Positions 10,327 to 28,144 of a stretch of 32,332 nucleotides of DNA are shown one piece after another (position 1 is the first letter of the stretch; each line of letters starts with the position of its first letter). The DNA is taken from NCBI GenBank assembly GCA_947624935.1, contig CANQML010000011.1, forward strand, positions 1 to 32,332. Direction: 5' to 3'. The notes below the pieces were generated by a model. That model had not been told where the DNA came from. It saw only the letters and a list, made by a program, of their open reading frames with translations, and did no database searches. The DNA is from Candidatus Gastranaerophilales bacterium (GTDB taxonomy: Bacteria > Cyanobacteriota > Vampirovibrionia > Gastranaerophilales > Gastranaerophilaceae). A program made the translations under genes and the position numbers.

Positions 10327-10461
10327 TCGGGACGACAGGATTTGCACGACAAACAAGGCGAATAGCCGTAGTTTGACGGGTCGGGAAAGTAGATTTTCAA
10401 GGCGATTAGCCGTAGAAAATCACTTTCGGGAAACCTGCGAAGCAGGATAAAGTGTACAAAA
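10327..10461. repeat. tRNA-Pro 3'-end fragment and nested palindrome mosaic
   Basis: Positions 10327-10344 (18 nt) repeat exactly the 3' end of the adjacent tRNA-Pro (10462-10479 on the plus strand); the match stops inside the T-loop. Between the two copies lie a pair of 18-nt repeats, CAAGGCGAATAGCCGTAG (10354-10371) and CAAGGCGATTAGCCGTAG (10398-10415), which match at 17 of 18. The second copy is nested in GATTTTC/GAAAATC (10392-10421), which is itself nested in GAAAGT/ACTTTC (10385-10427). A further hairpin, CCTGCgaaGCAGG, follows. No open reading frame here looks genuine. Confidence 0.75.
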
Positions 10462-10535
10462 TCGGGACGACAGGATTTGAACCTGCGACCCCCTCGTCCC
10501 AAGCGAGGTGCGCTACCAAGCTGCGCTACGTCCCG
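10462..10535 (-). tRNA. tRNA-Pro (UGG)
   Basis: A 74-nt tRNA without CCA. The acceptor strands CGGGACG/CGTCCCG pair fully, with discriminator A. The D-arm is GCGCAGCTTGGTAGCGC. The anticodon arm CCTCG-CTTGGGA-CGAGG carries TGG (10499-10501 on the complement). The T-arm is GCAGGTTCAAATCCTGT. It is surrounded on both sides by partial copies of itself. A promoter-like TTGACT..TAAATT sits about 220 nt upstream, so the repeats at 10536-10690 would be transcribed as part of the precursor. Confidence 0.96.
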
Positions 10536-10690
10536 AAAAAATAATTAATATAGAAGTGCTACGTCCCGATATAAAATTGTCAAAATCAAAAACTTCGTTT
10601 TTGAAGTGCGCTACCAACCTCTCACAAACGATACTCAATCGTTTGTTCGGCAGAGTGCTACGTCCCGAAAAAATAATTAATATAGAAGTT
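10536..10690 (-). repeat. Array of tRNA-Pro 5' fragments with a 39-nt hairpin element
   Basis: Read in the tRNA direction, the 10-11 nt acceptor/D-stem start CGGGACGTAG(C) recurs three times upstream of the real tRNA (about 10558-10568, 10657-10667 and 10691-10700). Two copies share the flank with core TTCTATATTAATTATTTT (10541-10558 and 10671-10688 regions). One copy (10607-10667) retains D-arm sequence on both sides, but its D-loop is replaced by a 39-nt element (10618-10656). The core of that element is a 9-bp stem, ACAAACGAT/ATCGTTTGT. A second hairpin, TCAAAAAC-TTC-GTTTTTGA, lies at 10586-10604. The 39-nt element is identical at 27952-27990 in the tRNA-Leu array. Confidence 0.85.
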
Positions 10691-15700: not shown

Positions 15701-15887
15701 GTATTATTACATAAACCTGCGTAAAATACAAAAGTTTGATTGTAAATTAATGTTAATAGAAAAATTATTATTTGGAACTGATATTAATTTTTAAAAATTA
15801 TTAACAAATCATACTTTTATATGTAAAACTTTATTGGATTTGTTATAAAATAGAAGTGCGAATTAAGAATAATTGGAGAAAAAATAT

Positions 15888-18800
15888 ATGTTTAAAAAGG
15901 CGCTATTTATTGCGGGTTTACTTTCTGTAATGTCGGTATCAAATTCGGCTTATGCAGATAATAGGCACGTCTTATCGAATGATGAAAGTATTCTTGAAGG
16001 TATAAAAGATGTAGTAACGGTAGAAGAAAACGCTCGTGGTGGTGCAATACAAAACGCTGGTGGATATAATTTAACCGTTGGCGGAACAATCAGCGGAAAT
16101 CAGCTTAAATCAGCAATAGCAGATCAAATCTCATTAGGCGGAGCAATCTTCCAGCAAGGTGGTACATTAACAGTAAAAGACGGAACAACCTTTGAAAATA
16201 ATACAGTCACAGGTTATGAACAGTCTTACCCCGGATATCCGCAAAATGACTATCCGTCTGGTGGCGCAATCACACAATATGGTGGTACTTTTAGTGCACA
16301 AGGAACTGTTACATTCTCTGGAAACGAGGCTACAGGAAATGAAGGTTATTCTACAGGCGGAGCAATATTTTTTGGCAGTAACGCAAATGCAACTTTCAAT
16401 AATGCAAATTTCTCTGATAATAAATCCGGATTTTACGGCGGTGCTATATATGCCGACAATTCAAACGTTACAATAACGGGCAAAGGTGATTTTCAAGGAA
16501 ATGAGTCTTGGCACGGCGGCGGAGTGATGATGCTTGGTGAGGAAAGCAATTATTTGCATATTGGTGCATCTTCAAACTTCCAAGGCAACAAAACGACTGG
16601 CGGAAATGGTGGTGGAATTGCAAATTACGGTACGACTGTTGAAATAGGAGAAAATTCAACCTTTACAGGTAATGAGGCTGTAAAACAAGGTGGTGCAATT
16701 TTTAATGCCGGCGGTAATGTAGAATTGGCAAAAGGCGCAACATTTTCGGGCAACAAGGCTAAAGACGGCGGTGCCATTGAAAACCAAATATATGAAGAAT
16801 ATAATGCCACTTTGACTATTAACGAAGGAACTCAATTTACAAATAACAGCGCCACAAGCGAAAGTGAAGGCTATGGCAGAGGCGGTGCAATCCATACAAA
16901 CAGTACTGTTAACATTAATACAGGTGAAAGAGATATCGTTTTCTCGGGTAATACTGCAAACAAAGGCGGAAACGATATATATCTTGAAGACGGAGCTAAC
17001 CTTAATATAAGCGGTTCGGGTAAGGTTTCGTTCCAATCAGAAGGCGGCTCTATTGCAGGTGGCGGTAACATAAATTTAAATTCAGGCATATTTGAAATAA
17101 AAAATAACACTGAGGACAATTTAAAGGGCTTTACAGGTAAATACACTCAAAACTCAGGTAAAACAATTCTCGATAATTCGGGATTTTTCAGCAATTTCGA
17201 TATCCAATCGGGTGAGTTTGAACTCAAAAACGGCTCTAAAGTTACGCTCGACGGTGTGACCAAACAAGTCGCTCAGTCGGGTTCGGTGATTTTGACCGTT
17301 GGGTCTGATGACGGCAGCAAAAGCACTTTGACAATCGGCGACGAACAACATAAATACAATTTGGGCAAAGATGTTCAAATTGTACTCGGCGAAAGCGGCG
17401 TTCTTGATATCGTAAACGGTAAAGTGACGTTTAACGGCTCTGCGCCAGCAGGGATAATGCTTTTGGCTGATTATTCAACCGATGACGATTGGAAAGGTAC
17501 TGTTAAAGTTGGCGGTGAAGGTGAGGCAGAGCTTACGCTTAGCGGGTTTACTCACGACACGTCAACGGGTAGTTATCAGCAATCAGGCGGAAAATTAACA
17601 CTTGAAGAAGGCGCAAAACTCTCAATTACAGATGAAGAAAGTTCTATCACGGGCGGTGATATCACCGTAAATAGCGGCACTACGTTGGATTTCTCTGCCG
17701 GTAGTATGACAGGCGGAACGGTCGATTTGCAAGGTGATATGATTGTTACCGGCGGAACATTTAATGAAAAATTTGACACTCAAGTCAAAGAGCACGGCAA
17801 CCTTTCCATTTCGGGGGGGGGTGAGTATCAAGGCAAAGCAGAAGTAGAGAGCCAAGGTCAATTAAATGTCACAGGCGGTACTGTTTCCGGTGAAACTACC
17901 AATAACGGCGGTAATATAACCGTAAGTGGCAATGGTTCAATCACAGGTAACTTGACTAACCAAAGCGGTAATGTAAATGTCAATTCGGGCGGTTCTATTA
18001 CAGGTAGTGGCACTCTTGATTTGCAAGGCGGAAAACTTACCGTAGAAGGCGGAACAGTTGACAAAGAAGGTCAAACCAAAGTCGGCTCAAGTGCCGAAGT
18101 CGATGTTAAAAGCGGTAGCTTTACCATGCAATCAGGTGATGAATGGAGCGGCAGCGTTAAAAACGAAGGCGGAAAAGTAACATTAAACGGCTTTGACGCT
18201 TCATCAAAAGGAGGTCATTATCAAGGCACGGGCGGAGAACTCGATTTGGAAGGCGGAGCTAAACTCAAATTAGGCGATGGTGACAGCGTATCAGGCGGTG
18301 ACGTTAATGTTAAAGGAAATTCTCAACTTGAAGTCGGTTCAGGCTCATCCGTTTCAGAAAATAATTTCACGGTAAGCGGTGAAAGCAGTGACCTTAAGGT
18401 TAGTGAAGGCGGTTCAATTTCAGGCGGCACTATCACGGCAAGCGATAACGGAAGTTTAACCGTTGACGGCGGAAATATCACAGGCAGCGCTGAGTTGACG
18501 GCTGACGGCGGTCAGATTGATGTCAAAAACAACGGCAAAATCGAAGGCGGCTCTATTGATGTAAAAGGCGAAGGCGGTTCGCTGACTGTTGAAGGCGGCG
18601 GCTCCGTTTCGGGCGGTACTATAACTTCAAGCGGTAAAGGCAGTGTAACCGTTGGCGATGGCGGTTCTATATCAGGTGGTTCGGTCACGGCAAAAGACGG
18701 CGGAAGTGTCAATGTCGGCGAAAACGGTTCAATTAAAGACGGTGCAAGTGTTACGGCAGAGGCAGGCGGAAGTGTTGACGTTAAATCAGGCGGTACAATC

Positions 18801-21800
18801 GAAGGCGGCAACATTACCGTTTCGGGTGAAGGTTCAAGTTTTAAAAACGAAGGTACAATCACAGGCGGTGAAATCACTTTAGGTGAACACGCGTCATTTG
18901 ACTCTACGGGTGAAATCGATGGCGGAAGTTTCACATTTGAAGGTAAACTTGAAGGAAACGCTTTAATCGAAAGTGAAATTAAAAAAGAAGCCAAATATAA
19001 TTTAGGCGGCGGAAATACTTTTGAGATAAAAGATAAAGGTAATTTGACAGTAAACAGCGATGAAACTGACGGGGATAATTGGTTAGAAAATTCAACCGTT
19101 CAGTTGGGTTCGGCTCCCGAAGAAGAACCGTCAGCTAATGGCGGTACGTTTAACTTTGAAGGTACTAAAAACGGTACAAACGGAGTATTAAAGGCTTATA
19201 GCGGTAATTTAAAAGTCAACGGTAAAAATCCCGATGGCGTTACATCTCAAGCATTAAAACTCGGTGAAGGCAGTGTTATTGCAAAAGAAGTTAATACTAC
19301 AATTGACTCCGAACTTGATGTTGATGCGGGTTCAGAGGTTACCTTAGATAGCTCTGACGAATGGAATGAATCCGGTCATGTCGTTGTCGAAGGCGGTAAG
19401 TTAACGCTTGAGGATGTAACCGACAAATCAGGTTACTTAACTCAAACAAGCGGTGATACTACTGTTAATGGCGAATTTGATATGAATAATGCCGATGATT
19501 CATTCACAGGCGGTAACTTACATATCACAGAAGGTTCAACACTTAAACAAAGCAACGGTACGATTACAAGCAATGCTGAATTAGATATACAATCAGGCGG
19601 TAACCTCACATTGTCAGGCGGTGAAACTCATATCAATGGCAACGACAAATGGACAGGAGAAATTGATGTTAGTGACTCGGGTGATTTGCAGATTGCAACC
19701 AGCAAAGGCAAGACAGGTGCTTTGAAACAGTCAGGCGGAAAAGTTACCGTTAAAGGCGAGTTTGACTTAAATAATGCGGACGATGATATTTCAGGCGGTG
19801 AATTTATTATTAAAAACGCAACAAACACCCCGACCAACTTAACCCAAAGCGCAGGTAAAATAGAAAAAAATGCAAAAGTTACGCTTGAAGATAACAGCAC
19901 ATTGACCTTAACGGGCGGTACAACAACACTTGACAGTTCTACTGATTCTGCCGATACTTGGGCTGGTAATGTTTACCTGTCTGAAAGCGGTAATTTGACT
20001 TTAGAAGGATTTTCGGGCAAAGAAGGCAAATTAATGGCTGACGGCGGTTCGTTGACAATGACTAGCGGCAGCTCTATTCAACTTGGCGCAAATGAATATA
20101 TTAAAGAAGCTACTAAATTTGACCTTGAAGCCGGTAACACCTTGGGTGTTACAACCGGTTCAGAGGTTACATTTAATGAAGGTGACACGTGGCAAGGTGA
20201 TGTGACACTTAAAGGTGGTACATTGACCTATGACTTAAAATCTAACGGCAAACTCGATGCGCAAACAGGCAGTTTAAACACTGTTAAAGAAAGTAACCTT
20301 ACTATCGCAGGTGGCAGTAAGATTGGTCAAGATGTCGCGGCTGATATTCAAGGCAAATTGACAATTTCAGGCGAAAGTGCCGAAAATCGCGGTACGGTTT
20401 CATTAAACGAAAATGACACAGTTACAGGCGACATTACTATTAATAATCATGGTTTGCTTGAAATGGGCGACAATGTCAAAATGGCTGAAAGCGGTCAGAC
20501 AATTACGTTTAGCGGTTCTAATGCCCAAATGGATTTGAACGGGCAGGGAAATCTCGATTTGAAAGCCGCACTTGTCAGTGAGACTGGTAATGGTATAATC
20601 AACAAAAACGGTGATGGTGATGTAAACTTTAAGGGTTTAACCAGCGGTTACAAAGGCAATTTTGTCGTTAACGGCTCGGGCAGACTTGATTTCTTTGATG
20701 AACAGGGGCTTGGCGGCAACTTGACCTTTGGCAATATCGAAGGCAAGGACATTACAATAGCTTCAGACAAGGTTATGGGCACAACCACACTTGATAAAAA
20801 AGCCACAATCACGTTTGAAACCCACACAGACGGAAAAGACTTAACTTTAGGCGAAGTTGATGTTTCAAATGAAGGTACAATCAACGCAAACGCAAAATCC
20901 GGCGGCTTGTCGTTTACTGACACGGTCAGTGCAAATAACGGTACGATTGGCGCATTTGGTAATACTGTCACTTTCTCAAACGGTATCACGGCAGAAGATA
21001 ACAGTAACATTAATATCTATTCGGCAAATGAGGCATCGCTTGGCGCAGTTAATTTGAAAAACTCTGCTTTGAACGTTGCGGGTGCGGGCTTTACGGCAGA
21101 AAGCGTAACGTTTACCGGCACAAACTCGGTTAACGTTATGGACGGTGCAATGACCGATAACAATATGGGTCAATTAACACTTAAAGACAAGGCAACAGGC
21201 GAGTTTGGAATAGATATTGCGCCTCGTAATTGGAAATCCGATACTTTCTTAACGGGTGCTGTCACAGAGGGCGGAACGCTCCACGTTTCGGATTTTGCAT
21301 TTATGGGAAAAGCTCCGATTGACAGACACATCGGCTTGCAGGTGTTCCAAGGTAGTTTCAGTGAAGATACTTTGTTTACCGCGACTGACAAGGAAATCTT
21401 TACGCCAATCGGCTGGTACGGTTTGACATCAAGAGGCGGCGGGTATTACACAGCGTCATTGAGAAGATACAATGATCAGGTATTCAGAGGTCAGGTAACT
21501 GCCGTTGCAAATTACCAAAACCAAATGGTATTAAATAATATTTTATTCGACCATATTCAATTAATAAATAATCAATACTTTAGCGATACGACGGCAAACA
21601 AATACGCAGCGGCATATCCGCAGTTTGCACCGTATCAATACAACAAAAAAGACGGTAGCCTTTGGTATAAGGGTTTTGGAACTTTTGAAAAACTCGACAT
21701 GACCCGCGGACTTGATGTTAACAACAACTTCTACGGCGCTTTGGTCGGTGCGGATTTCCCTGCTATTGAAATGAAACACGGCTGGACGTTCTTGCCGACT

Positions 21801-22418
21801 GCGTATTTGGCATACACCGGCGCTCACCAAACTTATGCGAATATGGGTATGACCCAAAACGGCGGACAGGGCGGTGTCATGGGTTCATTTATGAAAAATG
21901 ACTTTATAGGCTCTGTCTTGGCATTCGGCGGCGGTTACGGAAACCAAATGGATGTGGCAGGCTTTACCGATGACAACGGCAACTGGTACGTCGGTGCCGC
22001 AACCAAAGCCGCATACAACTTCCACCCGACAAAACACTTTATCATTCAACCAAATGCCTTAGTCGGTTGGAATATGTTTGGCAGGTCAAACTGGTACACC
22101 GGTTTTGGCGATATGAATATGAAAACGGGCTTGCTCAACGGTGTTAATGTTGCGCCCGGTGTAAACTTCATCTATGGCAGAGAAACCTGGAGCGTATACT
22201 TGACGGCTCAATATTTCTTCAACGTAATGAGCTCGGTCAACGGACGTGCGGGAAATGTTGATTTGCCTGCGATTGGTATGAGGCATGGCTATCTTGAATA
22301 CGGTTTTGGTGCGACCAAAACTTGGAAAGACAGATTTAGCGCTTATCTGCAATTCGTTGTAAGAAACATTGGCAGAACGGGTATCGGATTCCAAGGCGGC
22401 ATGATGTTCAGATTATAA
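15888..22418 (+). CDS. Giant Pmp-like autotransporter with G9 tract
   Basis: This is a 2176-residue type V secreted surface protein. ATG 15888 follows GGAG and begins a signal peptide (MFKKALFIAGLLSVMS..AYA|D); a TTG at 15873 lies in the ribosome binding site region and is rejected. Residues about 45-370 carry eight GGA[IV] and about ten FxxN motifs, the signature of Chlamydia Pmp passengers. Residues about 370-1770 are a Gly/Ser/Thr-rich predicted beta-helix. This part includes a (S/T)GG-periodic stretch and at least seven modules marked by a D-x-W-x-(G/E) motif, with Trp at 535, 753, 1065, 1159, 1255, 1358 and 1435. Residues about 1920-2176 form the beta-barrel, ending GFQGGMMFRL. No cysteines are evident. 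A G9 tract at residues 642-645 could switch it off. A promoter is likely around TATAAA 15844-15849 but is weakly defined. Confidence 0.9.
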   Translation: MFKKALFIAGLLSVMSVSNSAYADNRHVLSNDESILEGIKDVVTVEENARGGAIQNAGGYNLTVGGTISGNQLKSAIADQISLGGAIFQQGGTLTVKDGTTFENNTVTGYEQSYPGYPQNDYPSGGAITQYGGTFSAQGTVTFSGNEATGNEGYSTGGAIFFGSNANATFNNANFSDNKSGFYGGAIYADNSNVTITGKGDFQGNESWHGGGVMMLGEESNYLHIGASSNFQGNKTTGGNGGGIANYGTTVEIGENSTFTGNEAVKQGGAIFNAGGNVELAKGATFSGNKAKDGGAIENQIYEEYNATLTINEGTQFTNNSATSESEGYGRGGAIHTNSTVNINTGERDIVFSGNTANKGGNDIYLEDGANLNISGSGKVSFQSEGGSIAGGGNINLNSGIFEIKNNTEDNLKGFTGKYTQNSGKTILDNSGFFSNFDIQSGEFELKNGSKVTLDGVTKQVAQSGSVILTVGSDDGSKSTLTIGDEQHKYNLGKDVQIVLGESGVLDIVNGKVTFNGSAPAGIMLLADYSTDDDWKGTVKVGGEGEAELTLSGFTHDTSTGSYQQSGGKLTLEEGAKLSITDEESSITGGDITVNSGTTLDFSAGSMTGGTVDLQGDMIVTGGTFNEKFDTQVKEHGNLSISGGGEYQGKAEVESQGQLNVTGGTVSGETTNNGGNITVSGNGSITGNLTNQSGNVNVNSGGSITGSGTLDLQGGKLTVEGGTVDKEGQTKVGSSAEVDVKSGSFTMQSGDEWSGSVKNEGGKVTLNGFDASSKGGHYQGTGGELDLEGGAKLKLGDGDSVSGGDVNVKGNSQLEVGSGSSVSENNFTVSGESSDLKVSEGGSISGGTITASDNGSLTVDGGNITGSAELTADGGQIDVKNNGKIEGGSIDVKGEGGSLTVEGGGSVSGGTITSSGKGSVTVGDGGSISGGSVTAKDGGSVNVGENGSIKDGASVTAEAGGSVDVKSGGTIEGGNITVSGEGSSFKNEGTITGGEITLGEHASFDSTGEIDGGSFTFEGKLEGNALIESEIKKEAKYNLGGGNTFEIKDKGNLTVNSDETDGDNWLENSTVQLGSAPEEEPSANGGTFNFEGTKNGTNGVLKAYSGNLKVNGKNPDGVTSQALKLGEGSVIAKEVNTTIDSELDVDAGSEVTLDSSDEWNESGHVVVEGGKLTLEDVTDKSGYLTQTSGDTTVNGEFDMNNADDSFTGGNLHITEGSTLKQSNGTITSNAELDIQSGGNLTLSGGETHINGNDKWTGEIDVSDSGDLQIATSKGKTGALKQSGGKVTVKGEFDLNNADDDISGGEFIIKNATNTPTNLTQSAGKIEKNAKVTLEDNSTLTLTGGTTTLDSSTDSADTWAGNVYLSESGNLTLEGFSGKEGKLMADGGSLTMTSGSSIQLGANEYIKEATKFDLEAGNTLGVTTGSEVTFNEGDTWQGDVTLKGGTLTYDLKSNGKLDAQTGSLNTVKESNLTIAGGSKIGQDVAADIQGKLTISGESAENRGTVSLNENDTVTGDITINNHGLLEMGDNVKMAESGQTITFSGSNAQMDLNGQGNLDLKAALVSETGNGIINKNGDGDVNFKGLTSGYKGNFVVNGSGRLDFFDEQGLGGNLTFGNIEGKDITIASDKVMGTTTLDKKATITFETHTDGKDLTLGEVDVSNEGTINANAKSGGLSFTDTVSANNGTIGAFGNTVTFSNGITAEDNSNINIYSANEASLGAVNLKNSALNVAGAGFTAESVTFTGTNSVNVMDGAMTDNNMGQLTLKDKATGEFGIDIAPRNWKSDTFLTGAVTEGGTLHVSDFAFMGKAPIDRHIGLQVFQGSFSEDTLFTATDKEIFTPIGWYGLTSRGGGYYTASLRRYNDQVFRGQVTAVANYQNQMVLNNILFDHIQLINNQYFSDTTANKYAAAYPQFAPYQYNKKDGSLWYKGFGTFEKLDMTRGLDVNNNFYGALVGADFPAIEMKHGWTFLPTAYLAYTGAHQTYANMGMTQNGGQGGVMGSFMKNDFIGSVLAFGGGYGNQMDVAGFTDDNGNWYVGAATKAAYNFHPTKHFIIQPNALVGWNMFGRSNWYTGFGDMNMKTGLLNGVNVAPGVNFIYGRETWSVYLTAQYFFNVMSSVNGRAGNVDLPAIGMRHGYLEYGFGATKTWKDRFSAYLQFVVRNIGRTGIGFQGGMMFRL
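17813..17821 (+). repeat. Poly-G tract (G9) in autotransporter 1
   Basis: Nine consecutive G residues encode part of Ser-Gly-Gly-Gly at codons 642-645. In this sequence the frame is open through to the barrel. Gain or loss of one or two G would truncate the protein before the membrane anchor. Confidence 0.9.
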
Positions 22419-22937: not shown

Positions 22938-22966
22938 TTGACATTTTTTTTGCTTTGTGTTATTTT
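22938..22966 (+). promoter_or_regulatory. Promoter of autotransporter 2 and the Skp-like gene
   Basis: TTGACA (22938-22943), a 17-nt spacer starting with eight Ts, and TATTTT (22961-22966). The predicted start near 22973 gives a leader of about 27 nt containing AAAGGAG. Confidence 0.75.
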
Positions 22967-22999
22967 ACATGTGTTGGAATTAAAAAAAGGAGCTATAAG

Positions 23000-25900
23000 A
23001 TGAAAAAAGAAAAAGCCTTATTGGCATTGTTGGTTTGTTCCGTGCTTTCGGTTCAAACTGTAATGGCTAATACTATTAATGGCGCTAGTAACCAGTTTAA
23101 CAGTGATGGCAAGGTAGGTGGCGCAGGTCATACCGGAACAAGTGATTTGAGTGATTATCTCATCCAAGGTCAAACATTTGACAAGAACGGTGCTTTGCAT
23201 GACGGTGGTGCATTAGGTATTTACGGTAAAGGTAAGACGACAATTGACGGAAGTACCTTTACAAATAACACAGCACAGCTTGAGCAGGGGGGGGGTAAGC
23301 TCAAAGATGGCGAGGTTGATACAAACCATCCAATAGGCGGTGGCGCTTTATCATTAGGAGCTTCTTCCAACACAGATGTAAAAGGTTCAATATTTAAAGA
23401 CAATAAATCAGGTACGGACGGCGGTGCCATTTCAACAAGACATTGGGATACGGGTATTGATAATTCAAATGCACATCTTAGCGTTTCGGGTTCAACTTTT
23501 GAAGGAAACAGCGCAGAAAATAACGGCGGTGCGATATTTAACAGTTTTTTAAAAACAACAGTTAGCGGTAATTTCATGCGTAACTCCGCAAAAAGAAGCG
23601 GCGGCGCAGTTTTTAACCAGGCTGGTTCTGATATAACAGTCGGCGGAACATTTGAAGGCAACTCGGCTCTATATTCCGGCGGTGCTATACATAACAACGG
23701 AAATTTAACTGTAGAAGATGGCTCAGTATTCCGTAATAACACAACTTTGTGGCCGAATAGAGATACGGCAGAGGATTATCCTGAGGTTGCTTGTGAAATG
23801 GGTACGATATATTCAGAAGGTACAGAAGCGAAAGCTGCAGAAGTTCATATCGGTAACAACGTAAAATTTGAAAATAACACGGCAGGTGCCGGCGCAGGCG
23901 TGTATTTATACGGTAACAATACGGCGACCATAGGCGATAATGTTACATTTAGCGGCAATAAGTCGTTAAAAGACAATAAAAATGACCAAGGCGGTGGCGG
24001 TGGTGCTATATCTTTAGTCGCCGGAAAATCTAACGGCACACCCGAGTTAGAAATAGGTAATAATGCAACATTTGAAGGCAATGAAGGTACATATGGCGGT
24101 GCTATTACTGTTGGTAAGGAAAAAGATGCAACAGGAACAGCCCAATTAGAAATAGGCATTAATTCCGTATTTAGAAACAACAAGGCAGAGACTTTTGGCG
24201 GTGCTATACAAAACGAAGGCAAAACGACTATTGGAGATGGTGCCGTATTTGACGGAAACTCATCCCAAATATTAGGCGGTGCTATTGCCAATCAAGGCGA
24301 CATGGGTACATTAAAAAATGCTACTTTTGTTAACAATTCGGCAACTAGTTACGGCGGAGCTATATATCAAAGTGGTAAATTAGATATAGAAAACTCTTTA
24401 TTTAAAAATAACAGCGCAGGTGAAAAAGGCGGTGCTATTACTGCATTAAAGGGAATGAGTATTACGGGTTCAACTTTTGATTCAAACAGTGCAACTAGCG
24501 GTTTTGGCGGTGCAATATATAATTCTAGCACAGAGGACGTTATTGTAAAAAATAGTGATTTAATTAACAACTCTGCATATAGAGGTGGTGCTATATATGG
24601 CACGGCAAATACTAAAACTGTGGTTAACGGTGGTACATATAGCGGTAACACGGTAACCGGCTTAAAGGACGCCGCAGGCAATTCCTTATACGGACAAGGC
24701 GGTGCAATATTTACAAATAGAAATGGTGCTGAATTACAGGTAGAAGGTGCTGTTTTTGACGGCAACTCTGCCGAAAACGAAGGCGGAGCAATCTGGTCAG
24801 GTAACAAAACAAATATTACAGACTCGGTATTTGCAAATAACAGTACTACAGGAACCGCCTTTACGGGTGATACTCCCGATTATAAAACTGATGCAGAAGG
24901 CGGCGGCGCAATATTTGTCGGAAGTAACTCCACGGCAACCGTTAAGGGCTCTGAATTTACGGGCAACTCATCGGGTACGGTCGGCGGTGCTATCGCAACT
25001 CGTTCTAATGCGGCAAGCGGTTCTTCAAAATTAACCGTTGAAAGCAGTAATTTTAGCGGAAACAGTGCGGCTAAAAACGGCGGTGCTATCGCATCTTACG
25101 TTGAAGCCGATATAAAGGATTCAAGCTTTACGGGTAACAGCGCAGGCGAAAAAGGCGGTGCTGTTTGGGCTAACGGTGATGTAACGGTTACAGCTGACGG
25201 CAGTGATGTAGTATTTGCAGGTAACTCGGCGGCTGACGGCGGCGACATATATATGGACAAACTCGGTACTAAAGGAAGTGTAGGCGAATTGAAATTTGAG
25301 TCAAAAGCTGACAAAAATATTACGATAGCCGACGGTATTTCGGGCGCAGAGAAATATAATGTTGAAAAAACTGGTGACGGTACATTAACCTTCAACGGTG
25401 AAATTAAAAACGCTAAAATGTCGGTAGATAAAGGTACACTTCACTTGGCAGAAGGTCACTCGATTGTTGATTCAACAATTACTATGAAAAAAGATACGAC
25501 CCTTGATACTACTGACGGTGCGTTCGAATCGTATGATAAAGGCGTTATTGAAGCAAAAGGTGCATTGAATTTGAAAGCTGATATCAGCTCTGCAACAGGT
25601 AAAACGGACTCATTTGAAGGATTAGAAGGCGAAGTAACACTTCAAGACTTCAACCCGGTCGGCGATTCTCTGTCAGGTAAGGGCGGTTCGATTTCTTTGG
25701 AGGAAATTAGTAGATCTTTAGGCATAGATCCGAGTAAGCTTAGTGTAGGTGAAGCCGCAAAACAAAACCACAGATTCTTAACACCTATCAGATACTTTGA
25801 CGGCAGATATGATGAGGCAACCACTTCATTTATATCTACACCGACCGGCAACGGTTACAAAGACTTCAACCCGGCTGTTATGGCAAGCCCGATAGCGGCA

Positions 25901-26914
25901 CAACTTGGCGGATATTTAACCCAGTTAAATTCATACGATGAGGCATTCCGCAATATGGATATGTACATGCTTATGACGAAAAAACAACGCCAGGCATTGA
26001 AATTAAGAAACAAATACGCGGCAGCAGACGGAAACTTAATCTTTGATCCTACAAATACACCATACGAAGATAAAGCCGTATGGATAAGACCTTACGCAAC
26101 ATTTGAAAATGTACCACTAAAAGGCGGTCCTCGAGTATCAAACGTTGCATACGGTTCATTCTTCGGAGCAGAAAGCGAATTGTATGACTTAGGCAACGGT
26201 TGGGACGGTATGTACGGAGTTTATGCCGGATATAACGGTTCTCACCAAGCTTACGACGGAATAGGAATATACCAAAACGGCGGTACTTTAGGTTTGGTAG
26301 GTATGGCATATAAAGGAAACTTCTTCACCGGCTTGACAATAAACGCAGGCGCTAACGTTGGCGAAGCAAGCACCTTCTACGGTCAGGATAACTTCACAAT
26401 GCTTATGGCAGGTATCGCTAACAAAACAGGATATAACTGGGAACTTGCAGACGGCAAATTTATTATCCAACCGAGCTTGATGTTATCTTATTCATTCGTT
26501 AATACATTCGATTATACAAATGCGGCAGGCGTTCACATTGATTCAGATCCGTTACACGCAATTCAAGTTGAACCCGGTATCAAATTTATTGGTAACTTGA
26601 AAAACGGCTGGCAACCATACGCAGGCGTAAGCGTAGTAATGAACTTTATGGATAAAACGAAATTTATGGCAAACGATGCAACATTACCGGATTTGAGCGT
26701 AAAACCGTTTGTAAGATACGGCTTAGGTGTTCGTAAAACCTGGGGCGAAAAACTAACAGGGTTCTTCCAAACATACTTTACTAATGGCGGAAGAAACGGT
26801 GTAGGTTTCCAACTCGGATTTAGAGTCAACTTAGGCAAAAACGGAAACGCAATCAAAAAAGGTAGCGTTCCGGAAAGACAAAAAACAGAGTTAAAGTTGA
26901 GTAATATCAGATAG
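23000..26914 (+). CDS. Pmp-like autotransporter 2 with G9 tract
   Basis: This is a 1304-residue surface autotransporter. ATG 23000 follows AGGAG at 7 nt and starts a signal peptide (MKKEKALLALLVCSVLS..VMA|N). The passenger carries about 20 GGA[ILV] motifs and about 20 FxxN motifs from residue 50 to 780, a very regular Chlamydia Pmp-type beta-helix. A linker region follows (about 790-1020). The C-terminal barrel begins near VWIRPYATFENV (about 1026) and its last strand is GVGFQLGFRVNLG (about 1279). About 25 further, basic residues (ending KLSNIR) follow, so the beta-signal is not at the extreme C-terminus. A G9 tract spans codons 96-99, early in the passenger. The Skp-like gene follows 31 nt downstream, probably in the same transcript. 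Confidence 0.92.
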   Translation: MKKEKALLALLVCSVLSVQTVMANTINGASNQFNSDGKVGGAGHTGTSDLSDYLIQGQTFDKNGALHDGGALGIYGKGKTTIDGSTFTNNTAQLEQGGGKLKDGEVDTNHPIGGGALSLGASSNTDVKGSIFKDNKSGTDGGAISTRHWDTGIDNSNAHLSVSGSTFEGNSAENNGGAIFNSFLKTTVSGNFMRNSAKRSGGAVFNQAGSDITVGGTFEGNSALYSGGAIHNNGNLTVEDGSVFRNNTTLWPNRDTAEDYPEVACEMGTIYSEGTEAKAAEVHIGNNVKFENNTAGAGAGVYLYGNNTATIGDNVTFSGNKSLKDNKNDQGGGGGAISLVAGKSNGTPELEIGNNATFEGNEGTYGGAITVGKEKDATGTAQLEIGINSVFRNNKAETFGGAIQNEGKTTIGDGAVFDGNSSQILGGAIANQGDMGTLKNATFVNNSATSYGGAIYQSGKLDIENSLFKNNSAGEKGGAITALKGMSITGSTFDSNSATSGFGGAIYNSSTEDVIVKNSDLINNSAYRGGAIYGTANTKTVVNGGTYSGNTVTGLKDAAGNSLYGQGGAIFTNRNGAELQVEGAVFDGNSAENEGGAIWSGNKTNITDSVFANNSTTGTAFTGDTPDYKTDAEGGGAIFVGSNSTATVKGSEFTGNSSGTVGGAIATRSNAASGSSKLTVESSNFSGNSAAKNGGAIASYVEADIKDSSFTGNSAGEKGGAVWANGDVTVTADGSDVVFAGNSAADGGDIYMDKLGTKGSVGELKFESKADKNITIADGISGAEKYNVEKTGDGTLTFNGEIKNAKMSVDKGTLHLAEGHSIVDSTITMKKDTTLDTTDGAFESYDKGVIEAKGALNLKADISSATGKTDSFEGLEGEVTLQDFNPVGDSLSGKGGSISLEEISRSLGIDPSKLSVGEAAKQNHRFLTPIRYFDGRYDEATTSFISTPTGNGYKDFNPAVMASPIAAQLGGYLTQLNSYDEAFRNMDMYMLMTKKQRQALKLRNKYAAADGNLIFDPTNTPYEDKAVWIRPYATFENVPLKGGPRVSNVAYGSFFGAESELYDLGNGWDGMYGVYAGYNGSHQAYDGIGIYQNGGTLGLVGMAYKGNFFTGLTINAGANVGEASTFYGQDNFTMLMAGIANKTGYNWELADGKFIIQPSLMLSYSFVNTFDYTNAAGVHIDSDPLHAIQVEPGIKFIGNLKNGWQPYAGVSVVMNFMDKTKFMANDATLPDLSVKPFVRYGLGVRKTWGEKLTGFFQTYFTNGGRNGVGFQLGFRVNLGKNGNAIKKGSVPERQKTELKLSNIR
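23287..23295 (+). repeat. Poly-G tract (G9) in autotransporter 2
   Basis: Nine consecutive G residues encode Gln-Gly-Gly-Gly at codons 96-99. The length is the same as the tract in autotransporter 1. The frame is open here; a slip would remove almost the entire protein. Confidence 0.9.
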
Positions 26915-27716: not shown

Positions 27717-27744
27717 AAAAAAAGAACCTTCTTCAGGTTCTTTT
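27717..27744 (-). terminator. Intrinsic terminator of tRNA-Leu
   Basis: On the minus strand, AAAAGAACCT and AGGTTCTTTT pair and run into a T7 stretch, 4 nt beyond the tRNA 3' end. Confidence 0.9.
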
Positions 27745-27748
27745 AAAC

Positions 27749-27827
27749 TGGGCATGAAGAGACTCGAACTCCCACGCGTTAGCACCAGTTCCTAAGACTG
27801 GCGTGTCTACCATTCCACCACATGCCC
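27749..27827 (-). tRNA. tRNA-Leu (UAG)
   Basis: A 79-nt tRNA without encoded CCA. The acceptor strands GGGCATG/CATGCCC pair fully, with discriminator A. The D-arm is GTGGAATGGTAGACAC. The anticodon arm CCAGT-CTTAGGA-ACTGG carries TAG (27792-27794 on the complement). A short variable arm (about 11 nt) and the T-arm GGGAGTTCGAGTCTCTT follow. Its 5' side is followed upstream by repeated copies of its own first half, and its 3' side by a copy of its last 16 nt. Confidence 0.95.
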
Positions 27828-28100
27828 ATATTGTCAAATCGGCGTTGCCGAGGCGTGTCTACCACCTCTCACAAACGATACTTAATCGTTTGTTCGGCAG
27901 AGTACCACATGCCCATATTGTCAAATCGGCATTGCCGAGGCGTGTCTACCACCTCTCACAAACGATACTCAATCGTTTGTTCGGCAGAGTACCACATGCC
28001 CATATATTTTCCGGCAGAGTACAAACATTTGCCCATATTAGATTGTCAATTGGCATCCGCCGAGGCGTGTCTCTCTCACAAACAATATTCAATCGTTTAT
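27828..28100 (-). repeat. Array of tRNA-Leu 5' fragments with the 39-nt hairpin element
   Basis: Read in the tRNA direction, two good 87-nt units (period between 27851 and 27938) and one degenerate unit lie upstream of tRNA-Leu. Each unit contains the tRNA 5' strand GGGCATGTGGT, the 39-nt element (27865-27903 and 27952-27990, one mismatch between them), the rest of the D-arm TGGTAGACACGCC, and a flank containing CGGC..GCCG and TTGACA. The real tRNA differs only in having its normal D-loop in place of the element. A decayed copy spans about 28009-28100. The element at 27952-27990 is identical to that at 10618-10656 in the tRNA-Pro array. Confidence 0.9.
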
Positions 28101-28115
28101 GAACTCGCCTTTCTT

Positions 28116-28144
28116 ATATTAATACACACTATCCCTAATGTCAA
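28116..28144 (-). promoter_or_regulatory. Promoter upstream of the tRNA-Leu array
   Basis: TTGACA (28139-28144), a 17-nt spacer and TAATAT (28116-28121) on the minus strand. With a start near 28109, the precursor would carry a leader of about 280 nt made of the whole fragment array before mature tRNA-Leu. Confidence 0.75.

Follow-up and report, generated by a model that had tools for sequence, protein, structure and literature searches.

Hairpins of 21-27 nt, the small dispersed repeats (SDR), were reportedly described in Nostoc punctiforme and its relatives by Elhai et al. in 2008 (Genome Res 18:1484). PMC3116915 and PMC3733652 cite this work on the Nostoc SDR (Elhai 2008) and describe REP/REPIN sequences with their RAYT transposases, that is, short palindromic repeats in many copies that involve a single-strand hairpin. 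Another kind of system, the tRNA-targeting integrative elements, uses tRNA genes and leaves a working tRNA together with a partial copy. Here we analyzed a 32,332-nt stretch of a Candidatus Gastranaerophilales genome (hereafter the window), in which an intact tRNA-Leu(UAG) gene is preceded by tandem copies of its own 5' part, each interrupted by a 39-nt hairpin element.

Judged by description, the SDR of Nostoc appear to be the closest known kind. Both are very small hairpins with compensatory change that belong to one lineage of the cyanobacterial phylum, lie nested in other repeats or mini-transposons and have no associated gene. Nevertheless, the element is longer (37-44 nt versus 21-27 nt for SDR) and different in sequence, and it occurs mainly in partial tRNA copies that go with a tRNA-end duplication, where it sits at N|GNA and replaces 4-7 nt; the element pattern gave no matches in other cyanobacterial classes. 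With REP/REPIN sequences it shares the traits given above, but it lacks a GTAG or CGTC tag, does not occur in inverted doublets and targets tRNA, and the local RAYT genes have other palindromes. In contrast to tRNA-targeting integrative elements, the array is made of ~90-nt units, carries neither cargo nor integrase, and the duplicated part can be the 5' as well as the 3' end. An earlier note on this DNA had held that no family of this kind was described; the broadly similar SDR qualify that statement, whereas a literature search found no description of tRNA-end duplication with an N|GNA replacement rule.

The array and other copies in the source genome

The features of the tRNA-Leu(UAG) locus are, in order of coordinates:

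27720..27744 (-): terminator-like hairpin 3' of tRNA-Leu (sequence)
27748..27828 (-): intact tRNA-Leu(UAG) (ARAGORN; Rfam RF00005, 57.3 bits)
27830..27837 (-): leader motif TTGACAAT directly before the intact tRNA-Leu (family form TTGAnAAnTnAATA; sequence, seen again before units and many tRNAs)
27839..27851 (-): P3 (second hairpin) of unit 1, TCGGCAACGCCGA (sequence; other species have a different but paired hairpin at the homologous position)
27852..27864 (-): unit 1 copy of the tRNA D-arm 3' strand, TGGTAGACACGCC (identical to the intact tRNA)
27865..27903 (-): 39-nt hairpin element, copy 1 (repeat and motif searches, family alignment)
27904..27914 (-): unit 1 copy of tRNA nt 1-11, GGGCATGTGGT (repeat search, tRNA comparison)
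27917..27938 (-): P3 hairpin of unit 2, TCGGCAATGCCGA, and leader motif (sequence)
27939..27951 (-): unit 2 copy of the tRNA D-arm 3' strand (repeat search)
27952..27990 (-): 39-nt hairpin element, copy 2, 1 base different from copy 1 (repeat and motif searches)
27991..28001 (-): unit 2 copy of tRNA nt 1-11 (repeat search)
28006..28100 (-): decayed unit (ACTCTGCCG remnant at 28012-28020, tRNA 5' remnant, eroded element at 28072-28100; 83% match over 28042-28098)
28116..28144 (-): promoter TTGACA-N17-TAATAT upstream of the array (10/12 matches; the arrays of sister species likewise lie between promoter and tRNA)

A repeat search identified two 87-nt copies (27817-27903 and 27904-27990) that are 98% identical (TRF score 364). 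Together with ARAGORN and Rfam, it bore out the earlier description of two 87-nt units plus a decayed one, each with 5' parts of tRNA-Leu(UAG) and a 39-nt hairpin, the stem of which (ACAAACGAT/ATCGTTTGT) had been given correctly. A unit reads GGGCATGTGGT (tRNA nt 1-11), ACTCTGCCGAACAAACGATTRAGTATCGTTTGTGAGAGG (the 39-nt hairpin), TGGTAGACACGCC (the 3' side of the tRNA D-arm, tRNA nt ~17-28), TCGGCAAYGCCGA (P3) and TTTGACAAT, so that each closes with a second hairpin (TCGGCAACGCCGA); the third unit has lost most of its hairpin. The promoter proposed upstream of the array was confirmed, and the array is therefore expected to be part of the pre-tRNA leader and, since it lies between promoter and tRNA, is predicted from the sequence to be transcribed. 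The 381-nt array stretch folds better than 100 out of 100 shuffles (z -4.96), and a search of the array region with Rfam gave only tRNA matches at the gathering score and one further low-threshold match at chance level. The window also contains two very long repeat-rich ORFs (15873-22418 and 22955-26914) with the look of autotransporter/polymorphic outer-membrane proteins.

The tRNA-Pro(UGG) gene of the window has an element copy as well:

10461..10536 (-): intact tRNA-Pro(UGG) (ARAGORN and Rfam)
10618..10656 (-): 39-nt hairpin element upstream of tRNA-Pro, within a copy of tRNA-Pro nt 1-11 and D-arm (DNA search of the genome, motif search)
10657..10667 (-): copy of tRNA-Pro nt 1-11, CGGGACGTAGC (sequence)

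A DNA search of the source genome also located the element upstream of tRNA-Leu(GAG) and tRNA-Leu(CAG), where it is repeated in tandem, and downstream of tRNA-Leu(CAA), where it is antisense. All nine exact copies in this genome lie within tRNA-derived sequence (9/9), and the reversed control gave none, which excludes chance. An assembly artefact, the other concern, was ruled out because independent assemblies carry different units.

Structure, distribution and target sites of the hairpin family

Across genomes the element takes the form ACTCTGCCGA-[stem]-GAT-TNAGT-ATC-[stem']-GAGAGG over 37-44 nt. The parts ACTCTGCCGA, GAT-TNAGT-ATC and GAGAGG are invariant, while the helix between them varies (AACAAAC/GTTTGT, AGAAAAAC/GTTTTTC and ACGAGGAA/TTCCGAG, among others). 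Because the search patterns held the base motif (ACTCTGCCGA/GAGAGG) fixed, its covariation falls outside the measurement, and the following figures cover the inner stem: 54 compensatory stem cells were counted against 13.8+-3.0 in shuffles (0/500 shuffles as good), seven of ten inner-stem pairs were altered on both sides, and 95% of the cells were paired. The unpaired cells were mostly of the CGAG/CGAG type, able to form tandem G-A pairs. The element hairpin is kept as a structure through compensatory change. At its base, a CTC/GAG stem, a bulge and then G-A/A-G opposite GA resemble the K-turn RNA motif in sequence only; the bulge of a K-turn is usually 3 nt versus 4 nt in the element, which moreover keeps its sequence where it lies antisense. 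In a less common sub-family, AAGGACTCCGC...GGAGGAGG (loci L110, L139 and L155), the base is CTCC/GGAG and the apex is unchanged. At the same three loci this sister hairpin, AAGGACTCCGC-stem-GATTAAGTATC-stem-GGAGGAGG, occupies the identical D-arm position in copies of tRNA-Val and tRNA-Leu(UAA).

The genomes compared are mostly draft metagenome assemblies with many element copies at contig ends, and since the loci came partly from motif searches, the counts are biased to intact copies. A strict pattern detected the element in 26 of 59 relatives; with a looser pattern, 88 of 146 Gastranaerophilales genomes had it. Exact patterns detected it in 110 of 386 genomes of the cyanobacterial phylum, only in two families of Gastranaerophilales (f1 and f6), with no match in the reversed control. 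The element thus recurs in related genomes, as the earlier note had proposed to check, and does so at many tRNAs at the identical D-arm position. A covariance model found up to 55 copies per genome in the family to which the window belongs, where 38 sampled genomes matched (a count of matched genomes, not a rate), and gave one further, weak match in a genome of another family of the class. Copy number ranges from 1 to about 55 per genome. In the copy-rich genomes (G063, 51 copies; G070, 55; G080, 49) many copies are identical and nested in larger palindromic repeats, and at least 16 copies of G063 share the same top score with the covariance model; in low-copy genomes 24 of 30 copies are in a locus with a tRNA gene. 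A search of 2.9 million viral contigs returned no element match.

Upstream of tRNA genes the element is sense, and the D-arm copies that hold it stem from Leu, Pro, Val, Met, Ile, Lys, Ala and Thr tRNAs; downstream it is antisense, and the T-arm copies are those of Leu-CAA, Phe, Glu, Gln, His and Arg tRNAs. At tRNA loci the host is an additional, truncated copy of the tRNA end, and the intact tRNA is retained. The left flank of 112 out of 229 element copies was found in a tRNA within 600 nt, and in 73 of 93 sense copies the element follows tRNA nt 11 with no gap. The element replaces 4-7 tRNA nucleotides, most often 5, and in all distinct tRNA contexts the intact tRNA reads N|GNA at the target, N being any base but A. 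Examples are TAGC|GCAG, TGGC|GGAA, GATG|GTAG, GAGC|GCAC and GAGT|GGAG for sense targets in the D-arm (in Ile, just after the D-arm), and GGCC|GGAG, AAGG|GGAA, TCTC|GGAA and GATG|GGAT for antisense targets in the T-arm. The occurrence of the |GNA target in sense in the D-arm and in antisense in the T-arm explains the orientation of the element in each.

Confinement to the D-loop, as the earlier note had it, is only partly upheld: the same D-arm position is used in many tRNAs, but the element also occurs antisense in T-arms, beside tmRNA and in palindromic repeats unrelated to tRNA. The copies beside tmRNA are carried by antisense partial copies, apparently of the tRNA-like end of tmRNA (L151, L262, L282), and outside tRNA the element is hosted by palindromic repeats, for example TCATCCTGAGC|element|GCGAAGGATC and CCCTCCCC..|element|..GGGG. 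Positions unrelated to D-loops, which the note had taken to speak against its proposal, are therefore among those found, while the link to tRNA itself is overwhelming. In a REP-like host, GAGC|GAATGC|GAAGC is a candidate empty site for GAGC|element|TAAGAAGC, a suggestive comparison between different loci. Abundant hosts are nested palindromic mini-repeats (TCATTGCGAG..GCAATC and GTCATCCTGAG..GAAGGATC, with outer GCAAATTCC ends; L046, L101, L291-L295). At one contig end (L034/L311, G011:C17:69-109) the element lies within an apparent antisense 5S rRNA stretch that has no Rfam match to the 5S gene.

Partial tRNA copies, leader hairpins and syntenic loci

Among the sense copies derived from tRNA 5' ends, 78 had the cognate tRNA within 700 nt, 22 were at contig or locus ends and one was a false match, so that none lay away from its own tRNA. 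Matches to tRNA nt 1-11 numbered 124, versus seven chance matches for control internal 11-mers. Partial 5' copies devoid of the element are rare, most carrying an element variant or another hairpin. Two architectures were distinguished: a direct one (Leu-UAG, Pro-UGG/CGG and Val) and a fold-back one, with the tRNA 5' end copied again in inverted orientation after the element (Leu-GAG/CAG/UAA, Pro-GGG and Met); such inverted copies were present in 33 of 88 units at p<=0.05. A general three-way junction, with P1 pairing around every element, was considered and rejected as not general (18% of loci at p<=0.05 versus 6% of controls). Stem types per locus, examined as evidence for descent, gave a mixed picture.

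In the Leu-GAG/CAG leaders the P3 hairpins comprise 18 distinct sequences, nearly all paired (mean z -3.1), and many of those in Leu-UAG, Pro, Val and Ala units have z below -2. Over the whole set, 21 of 83 were at p<=0.05 (control, 6 of 53), and P3 is missing from many units. Its pairing, kept despite sequence turnover, is a sign of selection on a folded leader. The leader motif TTGAnAAnTnAATA lies just before tRNA 5' ends at many loci, whether arrays are present or not, and resembles the boxA region of rRNA leaders. At another locus (L093:7506-7925), two tandem leader units precede tRNA-Arg(ACG), and their components are tRNA nt 1-19, a hairpin unrelated to the element and tRNA nt 12-28 in inverted orientation. 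The architecture is the same, but the element is absent.

Comparison of syntenic tRNA-Leu loci, suggested in the earlier note, did reveal loci free of the array. These tRNA-Leu(UAG) loci have common neighbor genes (76-98% protein identity for the main neighbors), and the number of units is 0 in G004, G006 and G011, 1 in G007 and G010, 2 in G008, 3 in G013 and at least 4 in G012, with decayed remnants in G001 and G009. At tRNA-Pro(UGG), the element is present in G000, G004 and G012 and absent in G005 and G014. Decay by internal deletion leaves ACTCTGCCG (window 28012-28020, G009 and G040). Wherever the upstream region was read, sister species included, the array lies between promoter and tRNA.

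Origin of the arrays

We lean toward the view that the element is a lineage-specific family of very small mobile hairpins, with tRNA copies that accompany duplication of the tRNA end. The earlier suggestion of a D-loop hairpin with the tRNA regenerated by 5' duplication fits best in its essentials, given the many tRNAs, the 4-7 nt replaced and the array-free loci, but not in its limit to the D-loop. Bursts of ~50 copies, a structure kept lineage-wide and the target rule argue for mobile DNA. Counting against this reading, the compared genomes showed no enzyme, excision product, new insertion or clean before/after insertion pair, and an unrelated hairpin has the same architecture at tRNA-Arg (L093).

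Since the neighboring P3 hairpins also keep their pairing, the main rival is a functional structured leader RNA of repeated tRNA-like units (tRNA 5' strand, P2, P3 and boxA-like motif), which would influence how the tRNA is transcribed, processed or stabilized, or would serve as a sensor of it; we hold this to be possible but doubtful. The placement of the array between promoter and tRNA, the arrays on the same tRNAs across genera, the unrelated yet nearly all paired P3 sequences (also at Leu-UAG) and the inverted tRNA 5' copies after the element are consistent with such a leader. Yet sister species lack any array at the same syntenic tRNA, many units have no P3, and the element sequence is unchanged antisense downstream and in non-tRNA repeats, where an equivalent sense RNA role is impossible. 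The fold-back inverted copies also suit a neutral origin, in which slippage during replication or template switching by fold-back at tRNA hairpins made the tandem repeats and only recombination spread the hairpin; the near identity of units within an array and the unrelated hairpin at tRNA-Arg suit it as well. This origin is nonetheless very unlikely, because identical 41-nt elements in dozens of unrelated, widely dispersed places together with a strict target rule need active spread.

Spread by the REP-associated Y1 transposase, which would make the element a member of the REP/RAYT palindromes, is slightly less probable still. In its favor, the element is short, palindromic and intergenic, and 21 of 59 relatives have Y1 transposase genes; in G020 such a gene is 265 bp away from an element, and in G009 and G010, two species, a RAYT (Y1) gene interrupts an element copy (L162 and L163, beside tRNA-Phe-like sequence), which shows contact, not mobilization. 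Against these points, the palindromes at the flanks of the local Y1 genes (GTTGGGCATACTTGCCCAAC, TAGGTCGGGC..) are their own and differ from the element, the element-rich genomes G024, G028, G035 and G008 have no Y1 gene, and the element has variable flanks and, at its base, ACTCTGCCGA/GAGAGG in place of a GTAG or CGTC tag. RAYT/Y1 was rejected as the mobilizer, its occurrence being uncorrelated with the element and its palindromes different. Least probable of all, to the point of being negligible, are attachment-site scars of tRNA-targeting integrases or of ICE and phages, where sequence carried by the integrating element would have restored the tRNA. A tRNA end does recur as direct repeats beside an intact tRNA, but the units span 84-130 nt and have no gene cargo or integrase, the duplicated part is the 5' end with the leader, copies also occur in non-tRNA palindromes, and the viral contigs gave no match.

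If the element is a mobile hairpin, a putative trans-acting enzyme might insert it in single-stranded, folded form into a short target on one particular strand, and insertion into a single-copy tRNA would survive, or occur at all, only with local duplication of the tRNA end. The duplicated part would be the 5' end with the leader for a D-arm target and the 3' end for a T-arm target, and the product in the former case would be [leader]-tRNA nt 1-11-element-tRNA nt 17-28-[leader]-intact tRNA. Arrays could later expand, contract and homogenize via unequal recombination and lose hairpins by deletion. Since false tRNA 5' halves would compete for the tRNA 3' half, presumably only self-folding units survive; element, P3 and inverted tRNA copies may fold the false halves on themselves, such that they do not compete with the real 5' half. 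Survival of self-folding units would reconcile selection on P3 with mobile DNA.

That the element keeps so closely to tRNA loci and is present in most genomes of the family could point to a function, which counts against the mobile reading. Just short of an even chance, in our estimate, is the broader claim of a ~40-nt tRNA-seeking mobile hairpin whose insertion is coupled to tRNA-end duplication and which thereby colonizes essential single-copy tRNA genes, and tmRNA genes, while leaving them intact, or else of a new class of repeated tRNA-like leader RNAs, each controlling the tRNA that it precedes. For annotation, truncated tRNA copies in predicted transcribed leaders could affect tRNA maturation. 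If the mobile-hairpin reading is true, the element would rank with the smallest known mobile DNAs, would follow a defined target rule and would have a way to reside within essential tRNA genes, and its arrays would provide a natural record of partial tRNA gene duplication and re-formation, as well as a comparative system of more than 100 genomes for array gain, growth and decay.
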